From positions 620,001-684,000 of the forward strand of contig NZ_FNSO01000003.1 in assembly GCF_900105945.1 (NCBI RefSeq): 64,000 nucleotides of DNA, in the 5' to 3' direction. Below the pieces are notes generated by a model that saw nothing but the letters and a program-made list of their open reading frames with translations, did no database searches and was not told where the DNA came from. Below, piece by piece: positions 8,681 through 32,762 of the stretch. Numbering within the stretch: the first letter of the stretch is position 1; each line of letters starts with the position of its first letter. Position numbers and translations under genes: made by a program. The stretch is from Amycolatopsis tolypomycina. GTDB taxonomy: Bacteria; Actinomycetota; Actinomycetes; Mycobacteriales; Pseudonocardiaceae.

Positions 8681-10435
<1,755 letters not shown>

Positions 10436-20158: not shown

Positions 20159-20923
20159 ATGCCGCACTCGTTCTCGCTGTCACTGGCAGCGGTGGACATC
20201 CTGCTGGAACAGCTCGGTCTCGGCCGCGCGCCGACACCGTTCGAGGTCCCGCACGTGGGGACGACGGTCGAGCAGCGCGCGATGATCCGCGACGCCGTCG
20301 TCCGCGACCTGACCGGCCGCGGGCTGTGGAGCCGAGGCCGCCTCGACCCGGACGCCGAGCTGGCGCTGGCGACGTTCGTCCGCGGCAGCGTGACGATCAG
20401 CGCGGCCGCCGAGCTGGGCGACCGCCACCTGTTCGCGCGGGTGGCGTCCGACGGCCAGTTCGCGGTGCTCGCCCGCCAGGAGGAGAACCTCATCGTCTTC
20501 GAGGAGGTCCGCCCCACGGGCATCGTCCCGGCGATCGTCGACCTCCTCCCGCTGACCCCGGCGGCGCCCGGCCAGTCGGTGACGATTTCGCGGCCGGTCC
20601 AGCAGCCCCGCCACCAGCGCCGCGACGAGGCGTACGACCCGTTCGCCGGCGTAACCGGCCCGCGGTCCCAGAGCGCGGGCGGCGGCCCGCAGGTCCGCAT
20701 GATCGAGCGGGTCTTCCAGGAGCCGAAGAAGCGCGTGGGCCAGTTCACCGCCCAGACCCGCGGCGGCACGCTCCCCCCACTGGCCTGGTTCGACACCCCG
20801 AGCGGCCGCTGGCTGATGTCCTCCCGGTCGGCCGCGGACGGCCAGCGCTGGATCACCTACGCCCCGGCCGACAACGCCCGGCTGGCCCAGCAGCTGTACG
20901 CCCAGCTCGAAGGCCAGTTCTGA
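20159..20923 (+). CDS. EspG-family ESX secretion-associated protein
   Basis: 254 residues. The N terminus (L-A-A-V-D-I-L-L-E-Q-L-G-L-G) and the helix T-V-E-Q-R-A-M-I-R-D-A-V-V-R-D-L match the EspG family, cytosolic chaperones that bind PE/PPE substrates of type VII secretion. GGAAG lies just before the ATG. It is followed by a helical protein, a lipoprotein and a PPE-like protein, so it probably handles the product encoded at 22083. No ESX core genes (EccB/C/D) are in the window. Confidence 0.85.
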   Translation: MPHSFSLSLAAVDILLEQLGLGRAPTPFEVPHVGTTVEQRAMIRDAVVRDLTGRGLWSRGRLDPDAELALATFVRGSVTISAAAELGDRHLFARVASDGQFAVLARQEENLIVFEEVRPTGIVPAIVDLLPLTPAAPGQSVTISRPVQQPRHQRRDEAYDPFAGVTGPRSQSAGGGPQVRMIERVFQEPKKRVGQFTAQTRGGTLPPLAWFDTPSGRWLMSSRSAADGQRWITYAPADNARLAQQLYAQLEGQF

Positions 20924-21052
20924 GCGGTGCGGAACCGGCTGAGCGGCCGGTGCGTCCGAACTGAAGATCGGTGAACGGCCGTGGCGGAGGGTGCCCGGCT
21001 AGTAGACTCCCGGGTGCACACGCACGGGCGAAGCGATTCGGGGTGGAAAGCG

Positions 21053-21499
21053 ATGTTGATTGCCGACGGTGGTGGAGGCTCGGTCAGGGACATCACCAAC
21101 CCGCTTTCGACGGCAAGCATGGGCGCCGCGGTGCAGGCGGTTACCGCCGAGACCCAGAAGCTGGTCGACGCGGCCAAGGGCGGCGGCTTCAAGATCACGC
21201 CGGAGGGCGTCAAACCGCTCCGGGACGCCCTGACCGAGCTGGTCAACGACCTCACCAGCCTCAGGGCCGAGACCTATGCGCTCGACCAGGCGCCCCAGCT
21301 CGGCAGTCACCCGTACGGGCAGACAGTCGCGTCGCACGACCAGAAGAGCGCCACCGAGGCCGAAGGCTCGGCCACGGCCGTGCTGACCCAGCTCCAGCAG
21401 GTCGCGAAACAGGCCGACGAAGCACTGGCGAGGGCTGCGGGCCTGTACAAGGAAACCGAGAGTGGAGCCTTCGCCGCGCTCCAGACCAAGCAGGCCTGA
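21053..21499 (+). CDS. Helical protein of the EspG/PPE-like cluster
   Basis: 148 residues, almost wholly helical, with two long amphipathic helices and a short loop rich in Gly/His/Pro near the middle, similar in size and shape to WXG100-like or PE-like partners but without a clear W-x-G. The ATG at 21053 is preferred because GGTGGAAAG lies just upstream; a GTG at 20981 is possible. It may be the partner of the PPE-like protein two genes on. Inferred from context. Confidence 0.6.
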   Translation: MLIADGGGGSVRDITNPLSTASMGAAVQAVTAETQKLVDAAKGGGFKITPEGVKPLRDALTELVNDLTSLRAETYALDQAPQLGSHPYGQTVASHDQKSATEAEGSATAVLTQLQQVAKQADEALARAAGLYKETESGAFAALQTKQA

Positions 21500-21503
21500 G
21501 GTA

Positions 21504-22073
21504 ATGACAAAACTGTTTTTCGTTCGTGCCGTGCTCCCGCTCGTGGCCGGTGGCGCGCTCCTGGCCGGCTGCACCAGCACGCAGCCGGGAACCGCGTCGC
21601 CCGCTCAGTCCTCTTCGGCGTCCGCCGCGCCCACGGAGAGCTCGTCCGCCGGCGGGAGCGGCACGCAGTCGATCACCGATCCGTGCTCGCTCCTCGAGAT
21701 GAGTGACCTCAGCAGCTACGGCCAGTTCAACCAGCCCGAGAGCAAGACGCTCGGCGGCGCCCGCACGTGCAAGTACCAGAAGAAGATCGCCTCGGCCAGC
21801 GACGCCACCATGGTCATCGGGGTGAACGTCCGCGACGATGCTTCGGTCGACCAGGTGCGGGACACGGGCGGGGGTGTGGCCGACAAGGACATCAACGGCC
21901 GGCGGGCGAAGGAAGCGCCGGACGGGGCCGCGGTGGGATGCACGCTCGGACTGGCCGTCGGTGCTTCGTCGCGGGTGGACGTGGCGGTGCTCCTGGACAG
22001 CTCGTCGAACGAGGCCTGCCAGGTCGCCGAGGCGGTCGCGAAGTCCGTCGAGCCGAAGCTGCCGAAGGGATAG
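21504..22073 (+). CDS. DUF3558 lipoprotein
   Basis: 189 residues. A signal peptide ends in a lipobox L-L-A-G-C with the lipidated Cys at residue 23, followed by a Ser/Ala-rich linker and the DUF3558 domain starting at D-P-C-S-L-L. Two further Cys residues (R-T-C and G-C-T) probably form a disulfide. DUF3558 lipoproteins are frequent near ESX accessory genes in Pseudonocardiaceae. The gene is tightly spaced, 4 bases after the helical protein and 9 before the PPE-like gene. Function unknown. Confidence 0.85.
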   Translation: MTKLFFVRAVLPLVAGGALLAGCTSTQPGTASPAQSSSASAAPTESSSAGGSGTQSITDPCSLLEMSDLSSYGQFNQPESKTLGGARTCKYQKKIASASDATMVIGVNVRDDASVDQVRDTGGGVADKDINGRRAKEAPDGAAVGCTLGLAVGASSRVDVAVLLDSSSNEACQVAEAVAKSVEPKLPKG

Positions 22074-22082
22074 GGGAACCCC

Positions 22083-23564
22083 ATGAGCACGCGACAGAGC
22101 CCGCCGCCGCCGAAGACTCCGGACAAGACGCCCCAGGAAGTCCAGAACATGGCGCCCGCCGAGCGGGATGCCTACCTGCAGCAGAAGGCCGAAGAGGGCG
22201 TCGACCCCAGCAACTGGCTGTTCGGCCCGCTCCAGCAGTGGATGGCGCAGGCCAGGGCGAAGGACCAGGCCCAGCAGATGGGCGACAAGAACGTCGAGGC
22301 GGCCACCAAGGGCCGCGACGTCCAGTACGTCTCGGGGCTGCACGCGCCGAACGCGGACTACAAGGGCACCGACCACACCCAGCTGCAGGCGTTCCTCCAG
22401 AGCAACCTGAACGTCGACCAGGTGTCCGAGGTGTCGACCGCCTACCACCAGGTCCACCAGGTCTTCGACAAGTTCGCCCAGTCGATGAACACCGCCGTCA
22501 ACGCCTCCAAGGGCACCTGGGAAGGCGCCGCGGCCGAGAACGCGCAGCAGTACTTCACCAGCCTGAGCAAGTGGTCCGACGCCAACTCGCAGAACGCCAA
22601 GCTGGCCTCGGAAACCATCTACGACCAGGGGCAGGCCGCCGCCACGGCGAAGAACTCCATGCCTGCGCCCATTCCGTTCAGCTGGACCGACGAGTTCAAG
22701 GGCTGGGCGACCTCGAACCCCTTCAGCCTGCCCGACAACGTCGACAAGTCGCTCCAGAAGCAGAAGGACAGCCAGGCGGCGCACGACGAGGCCGCCGGCG
22801 TCATGTCGACGTACGACAAGAACCTCTACGAGGCCGCCTCCAAGCAGCCTGCCTTTGCGCCGCCGCCGAGTTTCAGCACCGGGGGCGGCAGTGGTGACTC
22901 CGACGGCACCGGTGACCAGAACGGCATCAACCGGCCGTCCGGGGTGAACATGCCCGGCGGCAACTCGGGCACCACGCCCGGTAGCCACGCGCAGGGCTTC
23001 ACGTCCGGGCCGGTCCCGGGCATGGGCGGGCCGGGCGCGCAGATCTCCGGGCCCGGCTCGACCACCGGCGCGGGGCTCATGCCCGCGGGCACGACCACGC
23101 CGTCCGGCTTCACGCCCGGCTCGGTGCCGGCGGCCTCGACGCAGAACCCGAACCAGCAGTTCGGCGGGATGCCGCCGATGAGCCCGATGCCGATGGGCGG
23201 GATGAACCTCGGCGGCGACGAGGCCTACAACTCCAAGGTCGGCAGCGGACGCGGGGGCGGCGGCGGGTTCGGCCCCGGTGGCTCCGGCGCCGGCAACGCG
23301 ACGGGCGCGGGCGCCGCGTCGGGTGCCGCGCGGCCGGGTGGGATCGGGGCCGCGGAAGCCGCCGCGGGACGCGGGATGGGCGGCCTCGGTGCCGGTGCCG
23401 CCGGTCGCGGGGGCATGGGGCCCGGTGGTGGTCTCGGCCGCGGCCAGAAGGGCGAGGGCGACGAGGACACCGAGCACTCGCGGCCGACCTACCTGGTCGA
23501 GGGTGACCCCGACGAGGTCTTCGGCACCGACATGCGCACCGCGCCGCCGGTCATCGGCGAATAG
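22083..23564 (+). CDS. PPE-like / WXG-containing type VII secretion substrate
   Basis: 493 residues. The N-terminal half (about 1-260) is helical and contains W-E-G-A-A-A-E-N-A near residue 141, a W-x-G turn typical of ESX substrates, preceded by a helix with repeated V/F. The second half is a Gly/Pro/Met-rich low-complexity linker. The acidic end R-P-T-Y-L-V-E-G-D-P-D-E-V-F-G resembles the conserved tail of actinomycete PPE-like proteins. Probably exported by a type VII system with the help of the EspG protein encoded upstream. Confidence 0.8.
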   Translation: MSTRQSPPPPKTPDKTPQEVQNMAPAERDAYLQQKAEEGVDPSNWLFGPLQQWMAQARAKDQAQQMGDKNVEAATKGRDVQYVSGLHAPNADYKGTDHTQLQAFLQSNLNVDQVSEVSTAYHQVHQVFDKFAQSMNTAVNASKGTWEGAAAENAQQYFTSLSKWSDANSQNAKLASETIYDQGQAAATAKNSMPAPIPFSWTDEFKGWATSNPFSLPDNVDKSLQKQKDSQAAHDEAAGVMSTYDKNLYEAASKQPAFAPPPSFSTGGGSGDSDGTGDQNGINRPSGVNMPGGNSGTTPGSHAQGFTSGPVPGMGGPGAQISGPGSTTGAGLMPAGTTTPSGFTPGSVPAASTQNPNQQFGGMPPMSPMPMGGMNLGGDEAYNSKVGSGRGGGGGFGPGGSGAGNATGAGAASGAARPGGIGAAEAAAGRGMGGLGAGAAGRGGMGPGGGLGRGQKGEGDEDTEHSRPTYLVEGDPDEVFGTDMRTAPPVIGE

Positions 23565-23598: not shown

Positions 23599-24510
23599 TC
23601 AGTAGCGGTAGAACTTTTCGGCGCGGCCCTGCCGCACCAGCTTCAGCCATTGCAGGAACGCCTTCGGGTCCCGCTTCACGCCCACGAAGTACAGTCCGAA
23701 CCGGACGATCTCCAGCGCGCCGATCTTCCGCATCCCCGGCTGCGACAGCAGGTACCCGCGGTTGCGGTACGTGTAGTAGCGCTTGACCTCGTTTTCCGGG
23801 TCCTGCGCGTGGAACTTGCCGCCCAGCATCGGCTTGAACTCGTCCGAGCCGTCCGGGTGCAGGTACTTCGTCTTCAGCGACGTGCCGAACGGCAGCCCCG
23901 AGCGGGCCAGCCGCCGGTGCAGCTCGACCTCGTCGCCGCGGAAGAACAGGCGCAGGTCCGGCACGCCGACGACGTCCAAAGTGGACGCACGGAACAGGGC
24001 GCCGTTCATCAGGGACGCGATACCGGGCAGGAAGTCCGCGCCCAGCTCGGACTGCGACCGCTTCCAGGTCAGCCCGCGGCGCAGCGGGAACGCCAGCTTG
24101 TCCGGGGCGTCGATGTTGGACACCACCGGCGAAATCTCCGCCAGGCCCCGCTTTTCCGCTTCCTCCAGCAGGATGGCGAGCACGTTCTCGTCGGCCGGGC
24201 GGCCGTCGTCGTCGGCCAGCCAGATCCAGTCCGCGCCCAGCGACAGCGCGTGCAGCATGCCCAGCGCGAACCCGCCGGCGCCGCCGAGGTTGCGGTGGGA
24301 CGGCAGGTACGTGTGCGGCAGCGGGTAGTTCTCGACGACCTCGCGCGCGGAGTCGTCCGGCCCGTTGTCCACCACGACCAGGTGGTCGACCGGCCGGGTC
24401 TGGGCCGCGATGATCTTCAGTGAGTCCGCGAGCAGCTCGCGCCGGTGCCGCGTGACGACCACACCGACGACAGCGCCGTCGGGCAGCTGCCGGGTCTCGC
24501 TGGTCATCAT
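23599..24510 (-). CDS. glfT1: Galactofuranosyltransferase GlfT1
   Basis: 303 residues, GT2 family. It adds the first galactofuranose residues to the rhamnosyl-GlcNAc linker lipid. The N-terminal strand V-V-G-V-V-V-T, V-V-V-D-N-G, and N-L-G-G-A-G-G-F at about 75-82 are followed by the metal-binding A-D-D-D-G near 98-102 and F-R-G-D-E-V-E-L. Size matches Rv3782. The start (ATGATG) overlaps the wzt stop, so it is the last gene of wzm-wzt-glfT1. Confidence 0.93.
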   Translation of the reverse strand: MMTSETRQLPDGAVVGVVVTRHRRELLADSLKIIAAQTRPVDHLVVVDNGPDDSAREVVENYPLPHTYLPSHRNLGGAGGFALGMLHALSLGADWIWLADDDGRPADENVLAILLEEAEKRGLAEISPVVSNIDAPDKLAFPLRRGLTWKRSQSELGADFLPGIASLMNGALFRASTLDVVGVPDLRLFFRGDEVELHRRLARSGLPFGTSLKTKYLHPDGSDEFKPMLGGKFHAQDPENEVKRYYTYRNRGYLLSQPGMRKIGALEIVRFGLYFVGVKRDPKAFLQWLKLVRQGRAEKFYRY

Positions 24511-25328: not shown

Positions 25329-26282
25329 TCACACCCAGTAGGAGACGCGGGCACGGTAGTTGCGCATCGCGACGAGCGCGAGCGCCCAGCCGACGACGGT
25401 GATGGAGCCGACCACGATCCAGTTGCCGGGGGTGAACGACTGGCCGATCAGCGGCGCCCGGACCACCTGCATGAAGTGGTACAGCGGGTTCGCCTGGATG
25501 ATCGGGAGCACCCAGGAAATGCCCGACCGCACCCCGCCGCCCATCAGCTGGTCGACCGGCCACACGATCGGCGTGCCGTAGAAGAGCAGCTGGATCAGCG
25601 AGTTGATGACCTGCGGGATGTCGCGGAAGCGGGTCGAGATGATGCCCAGCAGCAGCGTCACCCAGCCCGCGTTCAGCGCGAGCAGGAAGAAGCCCGGGAT
25701 AGCCAGCAGGATGTTCCAGCTCAGGCCGGGGTGGCAGTACAGGCCCGCGTGGCAGAGGCCGTCCGGCGAGCCCAGCGAGTACTGGTTGTCCAGCGCCGAG
25801 AAGAAGATCACGAGGATCACGACGTAGACGATCATGTTGTGCGCCAGCAGCAGCGTCTGCCGCCACACCGTGCGCAGCATGTACACGCTCAGTGGTGCCG
25901 GGAGCTGCTTGATCAGCCCCTCGTTGGAGATGAACGTCTCCATGCCCTCGGCGAGGCAGCCGCTGATGAAGCCCCACAGGATGAACCCGGTGGACAGGTA
26001 GGGCAGGAACACCTCGATCGGCGCGTTGAACAGCTGCGAGTACAGCAGCCCGAGCCCGAGCGCGATGACGGCCTGGCTGATGGTGATCCAGAAGGGCCCG
26101 ATCACCGAGCGGCGGTAGCGCTGCTTGATGTCCTGCCAGCCGAGGTGACCCCAGAGCTCGCGGGCGCGGAAACCGGCCTTGATGTCGGCGAAGGCACGCG
26201 AGAACGTCTTGCTGTCCGACGCCGGCGGAGCGGGCGTCGCCACGGGGGAGTCTGCGGCCTGAACCGTGCTGGTGGCATGCAC
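25329..26282 (-). CDS. wzm: ABC-2 type permease for galactan lipid export (Wzm-like, Rv3783)
   Basis: 317 residues with six membrane helices after a soluble N terminus of about 60. The L-W-G-H-L-G-W-Q-D-I-K-Q-R-Y-R-R-S segment is the conserved amphipathic entry of O-antigen/teichoic-acid exporters, and F-R-D-I-P-Q-V-I is the coupling loop. GTG at 26282 is the only start that fits; no strong ribosome binding site is visible. First gene of wzm-wzt-glfT1, divergent from neuB with 129 bases between. Confidence 0.92.
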   Translation of the reverse strand: MHATSTVQAADSPVATPAPPASDSKTFSRAFADIKAGFRARELWGHLGWQDIKQRYRRSVIGPFWITISQAVIALGLGLLYSQLFNAPIEVFLPYLSTGFILWGFISGCLAEGMETFISNEGLIKQLPAPLSVYMLRTVWRQTLLLAHNMIVYVVILVIFFSALDNQYSLGSPDGLCHAGLYCHPGLSWNILLAIPGFFLLALNAGWVTLLLGIISTRFRDIPQVINSLIQLLFYGTPIVWPVDQLMGGGVRSGISWVLPIIQANPLYHFMQVVRAPLIGQSFTPGNWIVVGSITVVGWALALVAMRNYRARVSYWV

Positions 26283-26411: not shown

Positions 26412-27437
26412 ATGTTCATGCTCGGCGAGCACCCGGTCGGTGCCGACCACCCCCCTCTCGTGATCGCCGAGATCGGGATCAACCACGAAGGCGACCCCAA
26501 GAAGGCGCACAAGATGGTCGACGACGCCGCGGACGCCGGCGTCCAGGTCGTCAAGATCCAGACCCACGTGGTCGACGACGAGATGATCCCGAACGACGTC
26601 GTGCCCGGCAACGCCGACGAGCCGATCTGGGACATGATGAACCGCGTCGCGCTCACCGCCGAGGACGAGCGCGAGATCAAGGCGCACGCCGAGGAGCGCG
26701 GGCTCGTCTTCCTGTCGACGCCGTTCTCGCGCGCCGCCGCCGACCGCCTGGCCGAGCTGGGGGTCGAGGGCTTCAAGATCGGCTCGGGGGAGTGCAACAA
26801 CTACCCGCTGATCCGCCACGTGGCCTCGTTCGGCAAGCCGGTCATCCTCTCGACCGGGATGAACGACATCGCGTCCATCACCCCGGCCGTCGAGATCCTG
26901 CGGGCCGCGGGGGTCGGGTTCGCCCTGCTGCACTGCACGTCGCTGTACCCGACGCCGCCGGAGCAGGTGCGGCTCGGCGCGATCGCGGAGCTGCACGCCG
27001 CGTTCCCGGACGCCGAACTCGGGCTTTCCGACCACACCACCACGATCTACCCGTGCCTGGGCGCGGTCGCGCTCGGCGCTTCGGTGCTCGAGCGGCACTT
27101 CACGTCGGACATGAGCTGGCCGGGCCCGGACATCCCGGTCTCGTCGACCCCCGCCGAGTTCAAGCAGCTCGTCGAGGGCTCGCGGCTGATCCACGCCTCG
27201 CGCGGCGGGTCGAAGCAGATCCTGGCCGAGGAACAGCCGACGATCGACTTCGCCTACGCCTGCGTCGTCACCACCAAGGACGTCGCCGAGGGTGAGGCCC
27301 TGACCACGGACAACATCTGGGTCAAGCGCCCGGGCACCGGCGAGATCAAGGCGAAGGACTACGACAGCCTGCTCGGCCGCACCGTCAGCAAGGCGCTGCC
27401 GGCGAACACGCAGGTGAGCTGGGCGGACCTTGGCTGA
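26412..27437 (+). CDS. neuB: N-acetylneuraminate (nonulosonate) synthase
   Basis: 341 residues. It would condense phosphoenolpyruvate with ManNAc (or a related 6-carbon sugar) to form a nine-carbon nonulosonic acid. The NeuB barrel is clear: I-A-E-I-G-I-N-H-E-G at about 18-27, K-I-Q-T-H, F-L-S-T-P-F-S, I-G-S-G-E-C-N-N, L-S-T-G-M, L-H-C-T-S-L-Y-P and E-R-H-F-T. The last 65 residues form a SAF/antifreeze-like lid. GGAGG lies 5 bases before the ATG. It overlaps neuC by 8 bases. Confidence 0.93.
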   Translation: MFMLGEHPVGADHPPLVIAEIGINHEGDPKKAHKMVDDAADAGVQVVKIQTHVVDDEMIPNDVVPGNADEPIWDMMNRVALTAEDEREIKAHAEERGLVFLSTPFSRAAADRLAELGVEGFKIGSGECNNYPLIRHVASFGKPVILSTGMNDIASITPAVEILRAAGVGFALLHCTSLYPTPPEQVRLGAIAELHAAFPDAELGLSDHTTTIYPCLGAVALGASVLERHFTSDMSWPGPDIPVSSTPAEFKQLVEGSRLIHASRGGSKQILAEEQPTIDFAYACVVTTKDVAEGEALTTDNIWVKRPGTGEIKAKDYDSLLGRTVSKALPANTQVSWADLG

Positions 27438-28560
27438 GACCGGGCGGCGTGAGGTCCTCTTCCTCACCGGGACCCGCGCCGACTTCGGGAAGCTGCGGGA
27501 CGTCATGCTCGCCGTGCAGCAGAGCTCGGTGCTGTCCGCCCGCATCGTCGTCACCGGCATGCACATGCTGCGCAGCTACGGCTACACGGTGCGCGAGATC
27601 GAGCTGGCCGGCCTGCAGCGGCTGCACCTCATCCCGAACCAGATCGAGGACGAGCCGATGGCGCTCGTGCTGGCCAACACCGTCCAGGCGCTGGCCAGGC
27701 TGGTGCACGAGGAGCAGCCCGCCGCGATCGTCGTGCACGGCGACCGGGTGGAGGCCCTCGCCGGCGCGATCGTCGGCTCGCTGGCGAACGTGCGGGTCGT
27801 CCACATCGAGGGCGGCGAGGTCAGCGGCACGATCGACGACGTCATCCGGCACTCGCTGTCGAAGCACGCCCACGTGCACCTGGTCGCCAACGAGACGGCC
27901 AGGCGTCGTCTCCTGCAGCTCGGCGAGGAGGAGGACCGGATCTTCGTCGTGGGCAGTCCCGAGGTGGACGTCCTGACGTCGGCGCGGCTGCCCGACCTCG
28001 ACGAGGTCCGGCGCCACTACGAGATCCCGTTCACCGACTACGGCCTGCTGGCCCTGCACCCGGTGACGACCGAGCGCGACCAGAACCGGCGCAACGCGGC
28101 GGCCGTCGTCGACGCGGTGCTCACCGAGGGCAACTGGGTGGTCATCGACCCGAACAACGACGAAGGCTGCCGCGAGATCAGGAGCGAGCTCGACCGGCTC
28201 GAAGGCCCGCGGTTCGTGCGGCTGCCGTCGATGCGGTTCGAGTACTTCGTCACGTTGATGAAGAACGCGGCCGTCGTGCTGGGCAACTCGAGCGCCGGCG
28301 TGCGCGAGGCGCCCGTGCTGGGCACGCCGTCGGTCACCGTCGGCACCCGGCAGCGCAACCGGGCGATGGCGCCCAGCGTGCTGTCGGTCGAGCCCACCGC
28401 CGAAGCCGTCACGGCCGGGATCGGCAAGGCCCGCGCCATGGGCCGCTGCGAGCCGCACACCGAGTTCGGCGAGCCGGGCGCGCACCGCCGGATCATCGAC
28501 CTCCTCGAAGGCGAGGAGATCTGGCGGCCCTCGCTGTACAAGGCCTTCGTGGACCGCTAA
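27430..28560 (+). CDS. neuC: UDP-GlcNAc 2-epimerase (hydrolysing), NeuC type
   Basis: 376 residues, GT-B-like fold. The N terminus V-L-F-L-T-G-T-R-A-D-F-G-K-L is diagnostic of hydrolysing 2-epimerases making ManNAc for sialic-type acids. V-V-H-G-D-R-V-E at about 100, H-I-E-G-G-E-V-S-G-T-I-D-D near 122 and G-N-S-S-A-G-V-R-E-A near 291 are the UDP-sugar and catalytic motifs. A TTG start inside the end of neuB gives tight translational coupling. No dehydratase/aminotransferase pair for legionaminic acid is nearby, so ManNAc is the simplest product. Confidence 0.9.
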   Translation: MAETGRREVLFLTGTRADFGKLRDVMLAVQQSSVLSARIVVTGMHMLRSYGYTVREIELAGLQRLHLIPNQIEDEPMALVLANTVQALARLVHEEQPAAIVVHGDRVEALAGAIVGSLANVRVVHIEGGEVSGTIDDVIRHSLSKHAHVHLVANETARRRLLQLGEEEDRIFVVGSPEVDVLTSARLPDLDEVRRHYEIPFTDYGLLALHPVTTERDQNRRNAAAVVDAVLTEGNWVVIDPNNDEGCREIRSELDRLEGPRFVRLPSMRFEYFVTLMKNAAVVLGNSSAGVREAPVLGTPSVTVGTRQRNRAMAPSVLSVEPTAEAVTAGIGKARAMGRCEPHTEFGEPGAHRRIIDLLEGEEIWRPSLYKAFVDR

Positions 28561-29231
28561 CCGGCCGCGTGCTGCTCGGCGAGGACGAGGTCCGCGGCCG
28601 AATCGATGTCGATCGCGCGCTCGACCGGCACGAACTGGGGCCGCACCTCGGGGATGAAGAACCGCTCGTGGCGGCGGAGGTCGCCGGCGCGGACGAGGTA
28701 GATGCCGCCGGTGGGCCGCAGCACGACCGGCAGCGTCTGCCGGGGGGCTTCGAGGTCGGCCCAGTCGCGGACCGGGGCGATCCCGCCGTCCGGTGTCTCC
28801 AGGCACACCTTCAGCGGGTGGTGCTCGGTGGCGCGGCACATCTGCACGACCGAGCCGGTGGGCCGGTCCGCGTGGATGTCGAGGCACTCGGCGACGTCCC
28901 CGGCCGTGCGCAGCGGCGAAGTGGGCTGGAGCAGCAGGACGAGCGTCGAATCGGGGACGCCGAGCGTGTCGATCGCGTGGGTGACCGCGGGCAGGGTCCG
29001 GCTCGTCGCGTCCGCGAGGTGGGCGGGCCGCCGGACGGTCCGGGCACCTTCGGCCTCGGCCGCGGCGGCGATCTCGGCGTCGTCCGTGGTGACGACGACG
29101 TCCGCGATCCCGGCCGTGACGGCCGTGTGCACGGTGTGCGCGACCAGCGGACGGCCCCGGAAGAGCGCCAGGTTCTTGCCCGGCAGCCCGACGGAGCCGC
29201 CCCTCGCCGGGACGATGGCCAGCGCGGTCAC
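28557..29231 (-). CDS. neuA: CMP-nonulosonate (CMP-sialic acid) cytidylyltransferase
   Basis: 224 residues. It would activate the nonulosonic acid with CTP. The nucleotide-binding loop I-V-P-A-R-G-G-S-V-G-L-P-G-K-N-L is at the N terminus; V-V-T-T-D-D, L-L-Q-P-T-S-P-L-R and the metal-binding I-D-I-D-S near 210 follow. The GTG at 29231 has AAGGGG upstream. The gene faces neuB-neuC and shares four bases of stop with neuC. It is divergent from the GT29 gene. Confidence 0.93.
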   Translation of the reverse strand: MTALAIVPARGGSVGLPGKNLALFRGRPLVAHTVHTAVTAGIADVVVTTDDAEIAAAAEAEGARTVRRPAHLADATSRTLPAVTHAIDTLGVPDSTLVLLLQPTSPLRTAGDVAECLDIHADRPTGSVVQMCRATEHHPLKVCLETPDGGIAPVRDWADLEAPRQTLPVVLRPTGGIYLVRAGDLRRHERFFIPEVRPQFVPVERAIDIDSAADLVLAEQHAAG

Positions 29232-29333
29232 AGAGGACCCCTTCCGGGTAACGACAGTGGTCTGTCGGCTATTGTCCGTCTGCTCGGCTGCCCCCTGACG
29301 GCGGCCCCGGACACCGTTGCCAATGGGGGAGCG

Positions 29334-30026
29334 ATGAATCGGACTCAGTTCGCGGGCGAAGCGTCCGAGCAGCTCGACGAAGGTGACACCGGCCGCATGC
29401 TCCGTGAGCTCCTCACCGCCTACGCCCGTGGCCAGCGCGTCGAGACGATCGCCGTGGTCGGGAACGCGCCGATGGCGCCCGACGCCGAACGGGCCGCGCT
29501 GATCGACGGCAGCGACCTCGTCTTCCGCATGACGACCTTCGCGCTGGACGAGCCGGACGCCGAGCCGACCTACGGCCGCCGCACGGACGTCGTGGTGATC
29601 CACCGCGGGGTCATGGTCTCGCCCTACACGTTCGCCGACTACACCTCCCGCCTCTACCTGCTCGCCGAGCCGGGCCGGCTGTTCTGGGAACCCGAGACGC
29701 TGCCCGACTGGTGGCCCGCCGACCTGGGGTTCGTGCCGATTTCGAACCGGGAGTTCGTGCTGCCGCTGTCCCGGCTGCTCGGCCTTTCGGCGGACGAGAA
29801 CGTCTGGGCCACGACCGGCACCCTGGTGACGTACCTGTGCCGGCAGCTGTTCCCGAAGGCGCTGGTGCGCCTCACCGGGGTGTCGATCGTGGAACGGCCG
29901 GACCAGACCGACTTCGAGCACGCCTGGGGCGGCAAGGTCGGGGTGACGGCGGAGCACCGGCTGCACGCGGAATCGAAGCTGCTGAGCACTTGGCGTGACT
30001 CCGGAAGAATCGAGATTATACAGTGA
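29334..30026 (+). CDS. GT29 (eukaryotic-type) sialyltransferase-like protein
   Basis: 230 residues. Three family-like blocks occur in the right order: an L-motif-like block (A-V-V-G-N-A-P at 40-46, I-D-G-S-D-L-V-F-R-M at 57-66, Y-G-R-R-T-D-V at 80-86); an S-motif-like block (A-T-T-G-T-L-V-T-Y-L at 159-168, then L-T-G-V-S); and H-x4-E at His208-Glu213, the catalytic VS motif of sialyltransferases. No signal or membrane helix is seen, so it should act in the cytoplasm. The CMP-sugar genes beside it support the call. GGGGGAG precedes the ATG. Confidence 0.7.
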   Translation: MNRTQFAGEASEQLDEGDTGRMLRELLTAYARGQRVETIAVVGNAPMAPDAERAALIDGSDLVFRMTTFALDEPDAEPTYGRRTDVVVIHRGVMVSPYTFADYTSRLYLLAEPGRLFWEPETLPDWWPADLGFVPISNREFVLPLSRLLGLSADENVWATTGTLVTYLCRQLFPKALVRLTGVSIVERPDQTDFEHAWGGKVGVTAEHRLHAESKLLSTWRDSGRIEIIQ

Positions 30027-30478
30027 GTGACATTCGCGGAGTGGTGGTTCCCCGGGCGAAGGCGCTCGTAGGCATGGCCTGGCGACCGGTGATGGCGAGG
30101 CTGCGGCCGCGGATCGAGCAGATCGCGACCGACCGGATGCAGCCCGAGCTCGACCGGCTGCACGCGGACATCGCCGTGCTGCGCGAGGACCTCGGGCGGG
30201 CCACGCAGGACCTCGACGGCCATGTGAAGTGGCTCTACGACGAGCAGCGCCGGCTGGCGCCGCACCTGGCCGCCCTCGAAACGCGGGTCGCCGCCTTCGA
30301 ACGACCGGGCGCGGTGGCCCGGCCCGACGGACGGCTCGAGTACGCCCCGGACGAGGCCGAGGAGGTCCGCGCCGAGCACGCGCGCATCCGCGCGCGCCTG
30401 GCCGCGATCTCCAAGTACGAAGAGCGCCTGGCCCGCCTGGAAGCGGACCTCGCGGCCACCCGCGAGGTGGCCGGCTGA
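30023..30478 (+). CDS. Coiled-coil protein downstream of GT29 gene
   Basis: 151 residues, charged and helical from about 25 on, with heptad-like Leu/Ala spacing in two stretches (about 35-95 and 115-148) separated by a Pro/Gly turn. No enzymatic motif. The GTG start overlaps the stop of the GT29 gene as GTGA. It could be a scaffold or length-controlling partner of the glycosyltransferases; this is inferred only from position. Confidence 0.65.
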   Translation: MSDIRGVVVPRAKALVGMAWRPVMARLRPRIEQIATDRMQPELDRLHADIAVLREDLGRATQDLDGHVKWLYDEQRRLAPHLAALETRVAAFERPGAVARPDGRLEYAPDEAEEVRAEHARIRARLAAISKYEERLARLEADLAATREVAG

Positions 30479-30504
30479 GCCTCGTCGACACCAGGAGGCC
30501 CGGC

Positions 30505-32139
30505 GTGCTCCGGCGGGCCTCCTGGGCATGGCTGCTGCTCCTGGTCCCGCTGGCGCTGACGATCGCCTGGACCGGGCTCAACCACGACGTCCGGTTCGTC
30601 CTCGGCACGCTCCAGACGGCCGGTCGGGCGGGGCTGTCGCCGTCCGAGGTCTTCGTCCACCGGCCGATGGCCTACCGGCTGGTGCTGGCGGCCGGTGACG
30701 CCGGGAGCGCGCTGCCGCTGCCCGTCCGGGAAGCCGTCGTGCGGGTCCTGGCACTGGGCGCCGTCCTGCTGGTTTCGCTGCTGCTGCGCGCCGGCCTCCG
30801 GCGGTACCGCCCGGCCCAGGAGGCGACGGCCGTCGCCGCGGCCACGGGCGTCGCGCTGGCGCTGGCCCCGAACTGGGACTTCCTGCAGCCCGAGTGGCTG
30901 GCCGCGGTGTTCGCGGCCGGCGGGGTGGGCGCGGCCCTGCGGATCCCGCGGCTGGTCCCCGCCACGGTGGCCGGTGGGGTGTTCCTGGCCCTCGCCGTGC
31001 TGGTCAAGTACACGACGGCGCCGACCGCGCTGGTCGCTCTGGGAGTCGTCGCGGTGCTCGACCGGCGGCGCGCGCTGCTCACCGGTGTGCTCGGCGTGCC
31101 GATCTGCCTCGGCCTGTTCGGGCTGACGGTGCTGGTCGAGCCGCGCGAGTGGCGGTGGCTCGGCGAGCTGTCCTCCCTCAACGGCGGAAGCCCGCTCAGC
31201 CGCGGCTGGGCGCTGAGCGACGTGCAGGCGCTCGCCGGGACGGTGCTGAACGAGGCCGTGGGGGTCCCGGCGGTGGCCCTGCTCCCGGTGAGCGTCGCCG
31301 TGCTGGTGCGGCTGGCGCCGGGGCGGCGGGCGCGCCTGGCGTGGCTCCTCCTGCCCGCGGCCGCGGTTCTCGTCGTGCTCGCGGCGGTCGTGCTGCAGGG
31401 ACAGTGGTTCCAGTACCACCTGGCGGCCCTGGTGCCCTTCGCGGCCGCGCTCGGCGCACTCGCCGTGGCGCGGTGGTCAGCCGAGCACGGCGGTCCTTCC
31501 CGGGCGCTGGTGCTGGTCGCGATCGTGCTCGGCGCCGGGGTACCGATCGTCTCGGCGGCGACGACGGAGTGGCGCCTGGCGCACGGGACGCCCGTGTACG
31601 CGGCGCTGACGGGGCTGGTCGTCGCGGGCGTGCTGTTCGCGGCGAGGGATCGTGGCCGGACCTGGCCGGTGGTGGCGGTGCTCGCCGCGTCGGCGGTGTT
31701 CGCGGTCCCGGTGTGGCCGAGCGCGCCCTACTCGTTCGACGGGATCCACCCGGACTACACGAACTCCGAGCGGGTCGCGGCCGCCGAGCTCGACGAGCGC
31801 CTGATCGCGCCGGTCCGCGCCCGCATCGGGGCGGACACGCCCGTGGTGTACCTGGCGTTCGGCGACATGGCGTACTTCTTCGGCAACCCGGAGAACTGCC
31901 GGTACCCGGCGCCCGTGTTCGTGCAGCGCGGCACGTACATCCCGGCCGTGCGCGGGCTGGAGAGCTACCGGGAGAACCTGGCCTGCTTCGAGCACCCGGA
32001 CGCCCGGTACCTCGTGGTGCAGCCGTCCTGGCTGGCCCTGGACCGCCTGCCGGCCGAGGTCGCCGCCGGCGTGCGCAGCCGCTTCGACTGTGATCGCCCT
32101 TTGCCCGCGGGCCAGCTGACGGTCTGTCCGCGGCGCTGA
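30505..32139 (+). CDS. Polytopic membrane protein, probable GT-C glycosyltransferase
   Basis: About 544 residues with ten or more hydrophobic helices, then a soluble C-terminal domain of about 130 residues with paired Cys (N-C-R-Y-P, A-C-F-E-H, F-D-C-D-R) that suggests an exported, disulfide-bonded part. Loop 1 contains H-D-V-R-F and H-R-P-M-A-Y-R, acidic/His motifs common in GT-C proteins. The start is decided by a perfect AGGAGG six bases before GTG 30505. Third gene of the GT29 operon, so it may use a lipid-linked sugar made nearby. Exact reaction unknown. Confidence 0.7.
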   Translation: MLRRASWAWLLLLVPLALTIAWTGLNHDVRFVLGTLQTAGRAGLSPSEVFVHRPMAYRLVLAAGDAGSALPLPVREAVVRVLALGAVLLVSLLLRAGLRRYRPAQEATAVAAATGVALALAPNWDFLQPEWLAAVFAAGGVGAALRIPRLVPATVAGGVFLALAVLVKYTTAPTALVALGVVAVLDRRRALLTGVLGVPICLGLFGLTVLVEPREWRWLGELSSLNGGSPLSRGWALSDVQALAGTVLNEAVGVPAVALLPVSVAVLVRLAPGRRARLAWLLLPAAAVLVVLAAVVLQGQWFQYHLAALVPFAAALGALAVARWSAEHGGPSRALVLVAIVLGAGVPIVSAATTEWRLAHGTPVYAALTGLVVAGVLFAARDRGRTWPVVAVLAASAVFAVPVWPSAPYSFDGIHPDYTNSERVAAAELDERLIAPVRARIGADTPVVYLAFGDMAYFFGNPENCRYPAPVFVQRGTYIPAVRGLESYRENLACFEHPDARYLVVQPSWLALDRLPAEVAAGVRSRFDCDRPLPAGQLTVCPRR

Positions 32140-32198: not shown

Positions 32199-32762
32199 TC
32201 AGAGGTACTGGCCGGTGCCGGAAATGCCCGGTCCGTGCTCGTGCCCGTGGCCGGCGGCGGCCGCCCCCGACGGACCCGCCGGGAGGCCGCGGCGCATCTG
32301 CTCCAGCTGGACCCGGGCCGCCATCTGCTGGGCGAACAACGCCGTCTGGATCCCGCTGAACAGGCCCTCCAGCCAGCCCACCAGCTGGGCCTGGGCGATC
32401 CGCAGCTCCGCGTCCGACGGCGTCGAGTCGTCCGTGAACGGGCGGACCAGGCGCTCCAGCTCGTCCTGCAGCTCCGGGGCCAGCGCCTTCTCCAGCTCGC
32501 GGATCGACGTCTGGTGGATCTCGCGGACCCGCGTGCGGGACGCGTCGTCCAGCGGGGCCGCGCGGACCTCCTCCAGGAGCTGCTTGATCATCGTGCCGAT
32601 GCGCATCACCTTCGCCGGCTCTTCGACGAGGTCGCCCACCGACTCCGGGTGGTCGCCGTCGACGGGGGCGCTGCCCACCGGTGTGCCGTCCGGTCCGACG
32701 ACCACCACGTGGGGTGAAGATTCGTGCCCCGGGTCACCCGCTGTGAAGTTCGGCTCGGTCAT
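32199..32762 (-). CDS. bpa: Bacterial proteasome activator
   Basis: 187 residues, DUF2587 family (Rv3780, PafE). It forms a ring that opens the 20S proteasome for ATP-independent degradation. Four helices span about 45-150; the C terminus is a flexible Gly/His-rich tail ending in G-Q-Y-L, the motif that docks into the proteasome alpha ring. ATG at 32762 is chosen; an ATG nine bases upstream is possible. It lies between wall genes and the aminotransferase-like gene, the same synteny as in M. tuberculosis. Confidence 0.95.
   Translation of the reverse strand: MTEPNFTAGDPGHESSPHVVVVGPDGTPVGSAPVDGDHPESVGDLVEEPAKVMRIGTMIKQLLEEVRAAPLDDASRTRVREIHQTSIRELEKALAPELQDELERLVRPFTDDSTPSDAELRIAQAQLVGWLEGLFSGIQTALFAQQMAARVQLEQMRRGLPAGPSGAAAAGHGHEHGPGISGTGQYL

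Follow-up and report, generated by a model that had tools for sequence, protein, structure and literature searches.

In Gram-negative bacteria that export polysaccharides through ATP-binding cassette (ABC) transporters, the terminating machinery includes a coiled-coil protein that serves as a length ruler, and the terminator can be either a methyltransferase or a transferase dependent on 3-deoxy-D-manno-octulosonic acid (Kdo) activated by cytidine monophosphate (CMP), according to PMC11231755. In mycobacteria, galactan is synthesized on the cytosolic side of the membrane and leaves through Wzm-Wzt, and work on how its size is controlled continues (PMC10951656). The subject here is a nonulosonic-acid cassette at the galactan export locus of Amycolatopsis tolypomycina, located within a 64-kb stretch (the window) out of the 10.36-Mb genome. 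Like the mycobacterial locus, this region contains glfT1-wzt-wzm adjoining bpa; it differs in having the cassette between wzm and bpa. The cassette is a putative variant glycan-end or glycan-decoration system, in which a core of two genes, encoding a GT29-like protein with a predicted sialyltransferase fold and a coiled-coil partner, is accompanied by exchangeable genes for nonulosonic acid synthesis. It is found in about a quarter of the sampled Pseudonocardiaceae and in one other family. Within the titles and abstract openings of the open-licence literature on nonulosonic acids together with these actinobacteria or arabinogalactan, no account of this cassette is recognized.

The terminators of ABC-exported O antigens (WbdD; WbbB, a GT99 enzyme; and ORF7 of Klebsiella O4, a GT137 enzyme that is CMP-Kdo-dependent) resemble the cassette in several respects: an acidic ulosonic sugar from a CMP donor, a coiled coil tied to the transferase, a neighbouring ABC exporter, and methyl modifiers, which here appear as an alternative at the site. 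Unlike these terminators, the cassette is associated with actinobacterial galactan, has separate genes for transferase and coiled coil, encodes a GT29-like fold, lies beside a Wzt that lacks a carbohydrate-binding domain, and is found with gene sets for three exchangeable, putative nine-carbon sugars; in addition, a capping role is what is proposed for it here. The teichulosonic acids of actinomycetes, which are polymers of 3-deoxy-D-glycero-D-galacto-nonulosonic acid (Kdn), are similar in that a nonulosonic acid is destined for an actinobacterial wall, as would be the case here judging from genes alone. In contrast to those systems, no repeat-unit glycosyltransferases are seen in the cassette, and its site is beside the galactan exporter.

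The GT29 label of the transferase is hinted at by Pfam and supported by its relatives and its predicted fold. The window protein matches Pfam GT29 with an E value of 0.038 and 13.8 bits, below the cut-off of 23; because of this score, it is named GT29-like and is not filed as a GT29 member. However, 33 of 48 relatives match Pfam GT29 at E≤0.1, the best with 1.1e-5, and the predicted structure of the transferase has the GT29 fold. Residues H208 and E213 (H-x4-E) are invariant in all 48 relatives, and the motif is present in 69 of 72 loci. This motif presumably represents sialylmotif VS; its alignment with the His and Glu residues of ST8SiaIII is confined to a second, non-significant stretch of -2.7 bits. 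The predicted fold, a motif L region, and H-x4-E are common to the window protein and GT29 sialyltransferases, both mammalian (ST3Gal1, ST6GalNAc2, ST6Gal1, ST8SiaIII) and proteobacterial, the latter taken for comparison from PMC5811610. Unlike those enzymes, it falls under the Pfam cut-off, contains about 230 aa with no membrane anchor seen, is actinobacterial, and occurs with pathways of the N-acetylneuraminic acid (Neu5Ac), pseudaminate, and Kdn types. Its nearest named relatives are from Amycolatopsis strains, including A. rifamycinica at 97%.

The second core gene lies directly downstream of the GT29-like gene and on the same strand in all 69 fetched loci in which both are called (4 of these are duplicates). 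In the window the two genes overlap by 4 nt, an arrangement present in 24 of those 69 loci. Among 249 Pseudonocardiaceae genomes, a sample that includes the window's own genome, a profile of the coiled-coil protein has strong matches (E <1e-30) in 62: all 61 genomes with a GT29-like gene, plus one (G103) that has the coiled-coil gene with no GT29-like match and is a fragmented assembly of about 620 contigs. Another 11 genomes have weak matches only. Furthermore, the distances of the GT29-like and coiled-coil proteins agree once Wzt is allowed for (partial Mantel 0.89, 47 loci). Together, the co-occurrence, the fixed order, and the agreeing distances indicate that the two genes constitute a unit. 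A coiled coil is suggested by heptad periodicity, which is observed at p≤0.05 in 45 of 70 relatives compared with 1 of 30 transferase controls; a windowed version of the test gives 43 of 70 compared with 0 of 40 controls.

A preliminary description of the window had suggested comparing this region across Pseudonocardiaceae genomes, and in the 249 genomes the module indeed recurs beside the galactan exporter. A GT29-like gene is present in 61 of them (and in 8 of the 17 genomes of the genus), a NeuB-family gene in 72, and Wzm in 247. Given the 61 genomes, the cassette is not a private oddity of one strain. Nor does chance adjacency account for the arrangement: 58 of the 61 have a NeuB-family gene, which in 53 is within 6 kb on the same contig. 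This link is one-way, since 14 of the 72 genomes have NeuB-family genes, some of them weak matches, without a GT29-like gene. Wzm is near the GT29-like gene in 56 of the 61, 54 of these lying within 8 kb by coordinates among the matches listed and two (G136 and G049) by gene maps. The coordinates for the linkage counts were transcribed by hand, with one placeholder coordinate skipped, and the core's position in G017 and G167, where the contigs end, was left out of the Wzm count. The gene maps derive from a codon-usage gene caller that misses some genes, such as neuC in L098, which was recovered by tblastn. The transferase gene is between wzm and bpa in 45 of the 46 loci in which all three are called (duplicates included). 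Among 348 scanned genomes of the order, a single further family has the core, in 11 genomes; all three sugar types are again found around it, and in L184-L187 it is beside glfT1-wzt-wzm. Among 396 genomes of the phylum, the scan returned the window's genome and one 68-residue match (L192), a short GT29-like stretch within a large multi-domain protein.

The genes that would supply the sugar fall into three types, assigned by blastp to one representative per gene, with family-model scans for L063 and L084 only. Type A is the neuB-neuC-neuA set. Type B is a pseudaminic-acid set; in its representative, L063, PseB (482.5 bits, cut-off 407.75) and PseI (464.8, cut-off 340.25) are above their cut-offs, PseC (411.7, cut-off 423.5), PseG (85.4, cut-off 153.55), and PseH (37.6, cut-off 93.1) are below, and the PseF candidate, a cytidylyltransferase, scores 27.6 bits versus 205.7 and is called by no specific model. 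Type C, represented by L084, consists of a cytidylyltransferase fused to a KdsC-like phosphatase and a NeuB without the SAF domain. The L084 phosphatase reaches the cut-off neither of the Kdn-9-phosphate phosphatase model NF058599 (79.9 bits, cut-off 180) nor of the KdsC models (82-89 bits). Because this cassette has no 2-epimerase, its gene content suggests Kdn, made via the 9-phosphate, as the type C product, with Neu5Ac-9-phosphate as the alternative.

These sets have changed places around the core. The 72 loci (4 of them duplicates) comprise 27 of type B, 18 of type C, 16 of type A, and 11 outside the typing rule. On a tree of 69 transferases, sugar type changes 8 times at the fewest, where the minimum possible is 2 and the shuffled mean is 29.4; thus, the types are clustered yet have been exchanged several times. 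If only the starred, well-supported branches are considered, 5 changes are still required for type A, 3 for type C, and 2 for type B. The tree is a quick one, with a long-branch warning and support values from the Shimodaira-Hasegawa-like approximate likelihood ratio test (SH-aLRT) only. Four duplicate-genome loci (L108, L110, L112, L114) were dropped from it, and eight (L066, L098, L191, L090, L185, L186, L187, L079) were typed by hand because their sugar genes are more than 9 kb away, beyond the end of the contig, located on a different one, or missed. In L101, a transferase and coiled coil of the pse type, with a leftover pseF, stand beside neuB, neuC, and neuA, which looks like a recent swap of the sugar set.

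For the window's own strain, Neu5Ac is the best guess. NeuB scores 357.8 bits against the Neu5Ac-synthase equivalog TIGR03569, below the cut-off of 399.65, but its best match among solved structures is the Neu5Ac synthase SiaC of N. meningitidis (410 bits, whole-length alignment). The window's gene is the sole NeuB match in the whole genome (E≤0.001). The best solved relative of NeuC is the bifunctional uridine diphosphate N-acetylglucosamine (UDP-GlcNAc) 2-epimerase/N-acetylmannosamine (ManNAc) kinase, with 183 bits, a diacetylbacillosamine 2-epimerase being second with 155 bits. NeuA, which meets no equivalog cut-off in NCBIfam, is nearest among solved structures to the CMP-N-acetylneuraminic acid synthetase 1eyr (151 bits). 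In the whole genome, the best LegB match has 163.1 bits (cut-off 475) and the best PseB match 71.6 bits (cut-off 407.75). Legionaminic acid is rejected as the product here, LegB being far below its cut-off genome-wide, and since neither LegB nor PseB passes, Neu5Ac remains the simplest product, as the preliminary description had argued. That proposal is upheld for this strain, but not for Neu5Ac as a sugar tied to the place, where the three exchangeable types are found.

The space between wzm and bpa also accommodates other genes. In 20 hand-picked, and thus not random, loci without the core, the gap contains no called gene (5), a GT-C gene alone (4), a pyruvyltransferase (7), a methyltransferase (2), or something else (2); in L124, from the same genus as the window, it is an empty 245 bp. 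A polysaccharide pyruvyltransferase (PF04230) adjoins wzm in the cassette-less loci L117, L118, L119, L120, L121, L123, and L125, and one relative of it is near a pseudaminate cassette (L154). An epoxide-hydrolase-like protein is encoded near the pyruvyltransferase in several of these seven loci. A methyltransferase with a coiled-coil-like N-terminus, reminiscent of WbdD-type terminators, is beside wzm in four loci (L122:12992-13807, L131:5006-5872, L148:5386-6237, L149:4950-5801) and also in L064 and L081, which have a pseudaminate cassette alongside; the genomes of L148 and L149 carry the core elsewhere. Family scans cover one pyruvyltransferase (L121) and one methyltransferase (L131, Methyltransf_24/TylF), and the rest are assigned by membership in the same blastp cluster. 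For the methyltransferase (4 proteins), plain periodicity over the first 95 residues is not significant (p 0.24-0.41) and the windowed test is borderline (p 0.04-0.076), so that its coiled coil is only suggested. As L148/L149, L064/L081, and L154 combine them, the site genes mostly replace one another, though without strict exclusion. Genus g3 (L137, L138, L139) has a different NeuB-family gene (36-39% identity) and a NeuC-like gene (31-33%) without a GT29-like gene.

The GT-C-like protein of the window has no Pfam, NCBIfam, or PDB match, and its label reflects a polytopic-membrane appearance. The preliminary description had placed it within the module. However, several cassettes (e.g., L082, L087, and L096) lack it, and its relatives hold the site in three genomes with no NeuB match and no sugar genes there (L127-L129). 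It is therefore rejected as an essential part and does not belong to the core.

The parallel with coiled-coil chain termination in Gram-negative bacteria, together with the cytosolic synthesis and export of galactan, leads to a capping hypothesis. Cytosolic enzymes of the cassette would produce a CMP-activated nonulosonic acid; for this strain, the simplest route would convert UDP-GlcNAc to ManNAc (NeuC), Neu5Ac (NeuB), and then CMP-Neu5Ac (NeuA). The soluble GT29-like transferase and the coiled-coil protein would function together, the latter perhaps keeping the former at the membrane. The transferase would attach the sugar to lipid-linked galactofuranan on the cytosolic side, most probably at the growing end of the chain. 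Wzm-Wzt would then export the chain, which would enter arabinogalactan. Since the genes for the sugar can be swapped among Neu5Ac, pseudaminic acid, and Kdn-type sets, the wall would carry a strain-variable acidic sugar. The sequences themselves show which genes are present and where, the pairing of the GT29-like and coiled-coil genes, the association of this pair with nonulosonate synthesis, and the swapping of pathways. Like the preliminary description, we infer attachment to a lipid-linked or wall polymer, and the same holds for the enzyme activities, the product of each sugar set, binding to the membrane, and a role of the coiled coil in capping or as a ruler. That a nonulosonic acid modifies lipid-linked galactan by means of the GT29-like/coiled-coil pair has not quite an even chance of being correct. 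Rather unlikely as a whole, by analogy, is the fuller proposal that Pseudonocardiaceae and the second family cap galactan by means of a terminator with a sialyltransferase fold and a ruler formed by the coiled-coil protein, and that the cap, be it Neu5Ac, pseudaminate, or Kdn, with pyruvate or methyl as substitutes, is swapped at one variable locus to yield wall-polymer serotypes.

A connection to galactan is suggested by six type C genomes (L082, L083, L085, L087, L109, L113), in which a GlfT2 paralogue (about 50% identity, intact DDD and WDD) heads the operon and, in three, overlaps the next gene by 4 nt. The ordinary GlfT2 is retained as well in all 4 of the six that were checked. Not every type C locus has the paralogue; L084 and L086, for instance, lack it.

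Several observations weigh against modification of galactan. A GT29-like gene is missing from 188 of the 249 genomes though 247 have a Wzm match, and the core is located apart from Wzm in G201, G228, and G032, as well as in Saccharothrix obliqua (L115). In 7 of the 11 loci of the second family, it is beside purE/purK, with no galactan gene labelled nearby on the maps (purE, purK, and GtrA-like are names assigned there by reading the sequences). The core hardly tracks GlfT1 beyond Wzt (0.098, p 0.029, for the GT29-like protein; 0.087, p 0.056, for the coiled-coil protein), and only 45 of the 70 coiled-coil copies pass the periodicity test. The transferase clades partly track sugar type (8 changes versus 29.4 shuffled), and therefore one transferase need not accept all sugars. 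Wzt has no added carbohydrate-binding domain: residues 4-246 of its 271 aa cover the whole 244-position galactan Wzt model, and the 84 called Wzt genes encode 253-292 aa, except one of 363. Thus, in contrast to the Gram-negative systems, export may not require a cap. Finally, genus g5 (L140, L141, L142, L143) has pseudaminate genes near arabinogalactan genes without a GT29-like gene, perhaps a second, independent link between nonulosonate and the arabinogalactan region. These g5 genes adjoin homologues of the window genes at 9921 and 10436, the latter UbiA-like by sequence reading.

The cassettes elsewhere in the genome and the near absence of co-variation with GlfT1 are also what would be seen if the pair transferred the nonulosonic acid to a different glycan of the envelope (such as a teichulosonic-acid-like polymer, lipoglycan, or exopolysaccharide) and the Wzm-Bpa gap simply tolerated insertions of variable surface genes. 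The epoxide-hydrolase relative, which has no evident glycan link and is also in the gap, is consistent with this idea, as is the fact that Streptomyces coelicolor has Kdn in its teichulosonic acid (PMC7831098). Such a reading has an appreciable, if minority, chance; it must contend with the 56 of 61 genomes in which the core is beside Wzm, with its recurrence beside glfT1-wzt-wzm in a second family, and with the 6 genomes whose operon includes a GlfT2 paralogue. In addition, two other kinds of gap gene look like sugar or glycan modifiers, and besides the GlfT2 paralogue and the GT-C proteins no repeat-unit glycosyltransferase is seen in the cassettes.

Because a GT-C-like protein is encoded by the last gene of the window cluster and others like it occur at the site, such a protein could instead add the sugar from a lipid carrier, outside the membrane, to arabinan or finished arabinogalactan. 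This appears improbable, given that the donor would be a CMP sugar, that the constant protein with a transferase fold is the GT29-like one, and that GT-C genes, as described above, are absent from some cassettes and present at the site without sugar genes in three genomes. The hosts of the cassette are rich in secondary metabolism, but use of the enzymes for a cytosolic or secreted small molecule rather than an envelope polymer is very improbable, since a sialyltransferase-fold protein comes with a constant coiled-coil partner beside the galactan exporter and the window genes between wzm and bpa leave none for such a product. Modification of lipid-linked galactan is the preferred reading here.

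The gene assignments in the window, which are based on open reading frames, Pfam, and NCBIfam, bear out the place and order claimed in the preliminary description for the genes from neuB to GT-C, between the galactan exporter and bpa, and with them a nonulosonic-acid synthesis and transfer module adjoining that exporter (Table 1). Wzm, Wzt, and GlfT1 all exceed the cut-offs of galactan-specific NCBIfam models. The wzm start is called at 26243, the exact start being unsure, and that of bpa at 32762. The neuC gene has a TTG start and overlaps the 3' end of neuB, and neuA is convergent with neuC. Two transfer RNA calls by ARAGORN, at 25460-25551 (in wzm) and 29468-29541 (in the GT29-like gene), are probably false positives. 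Between GlfT2 and GlfT1, positions 20159-23564 contain EspG-like, small, and PPE-like genes, which many fetched relatives also have; EspG-like and PPE-like are names assigned by reading the sequences.

Table 1. Genes of the cassette and its borders in the window
Gene or product	Position	Strand	Basis or remark
glfT1, initiating galactofuranosyltransferase	23599..24510	-	NF050113 505.8 bits, cut-off 330
wzt, galactan exporter ATPase, 271 aa	24507..25322	-	NF050108 467.1 bits, cut-off 400
wzm, galactan exporter permease, site anchor	25329..26243	-	NF050109 426.9 bits, cut-off 380
neuB, putative N-acetylneuraminate synthase	26412..27437	+	NeuB and SAF domains; Pfam NeuB 240 bits, SAF 41.5
neuC, putative hydrolysing UDP-GlcNAc 2-epimerase	27430..28560	+	TIGR03568 360.9 bits, cut-off 235.9
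neuA, putative CMP-nonulosonate cytidylyltransferase	28557..29231	-	Pfam CTP_transf_3 68 bits
GT29-like transferase, constant core of cassette	29334..30026	+	weak Pfam match, relatives, predicted fold
coiled-coil partner protein, constant core of cassette	30023..30478	+	matches in all genomes with the GT29-like gene, heptad periodicity
GT-C-like polytopic membrane protein, outside core	30505..32139	+	polytopic membrane appearance
bpa, other border of site	32199..32762	-	Pfam PF10759 (BPA) 253.9 bits; stop at 32199

The preliminary description understated the reach of the module, which is not a feature of one strain but an exchangeable cassette distributed across the family and a second family. 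Arabinogalactan is usually described as a conserved core wall polymer. If the proposal is true, this polymer would bear an acidic sugar that differs from strain to strain, and current ideas on wall charge, phage adsorption, and recognition in actinomycetes would need revising. The GT29-like proteins would then represent an actinobacterial branch of the sialyltransferase fold that occurs with three sugar pathways. Moreover, the cassette would provide one way of marking galactan ends or length, a matter still unsettled in mycobacteria (PMC10951656).

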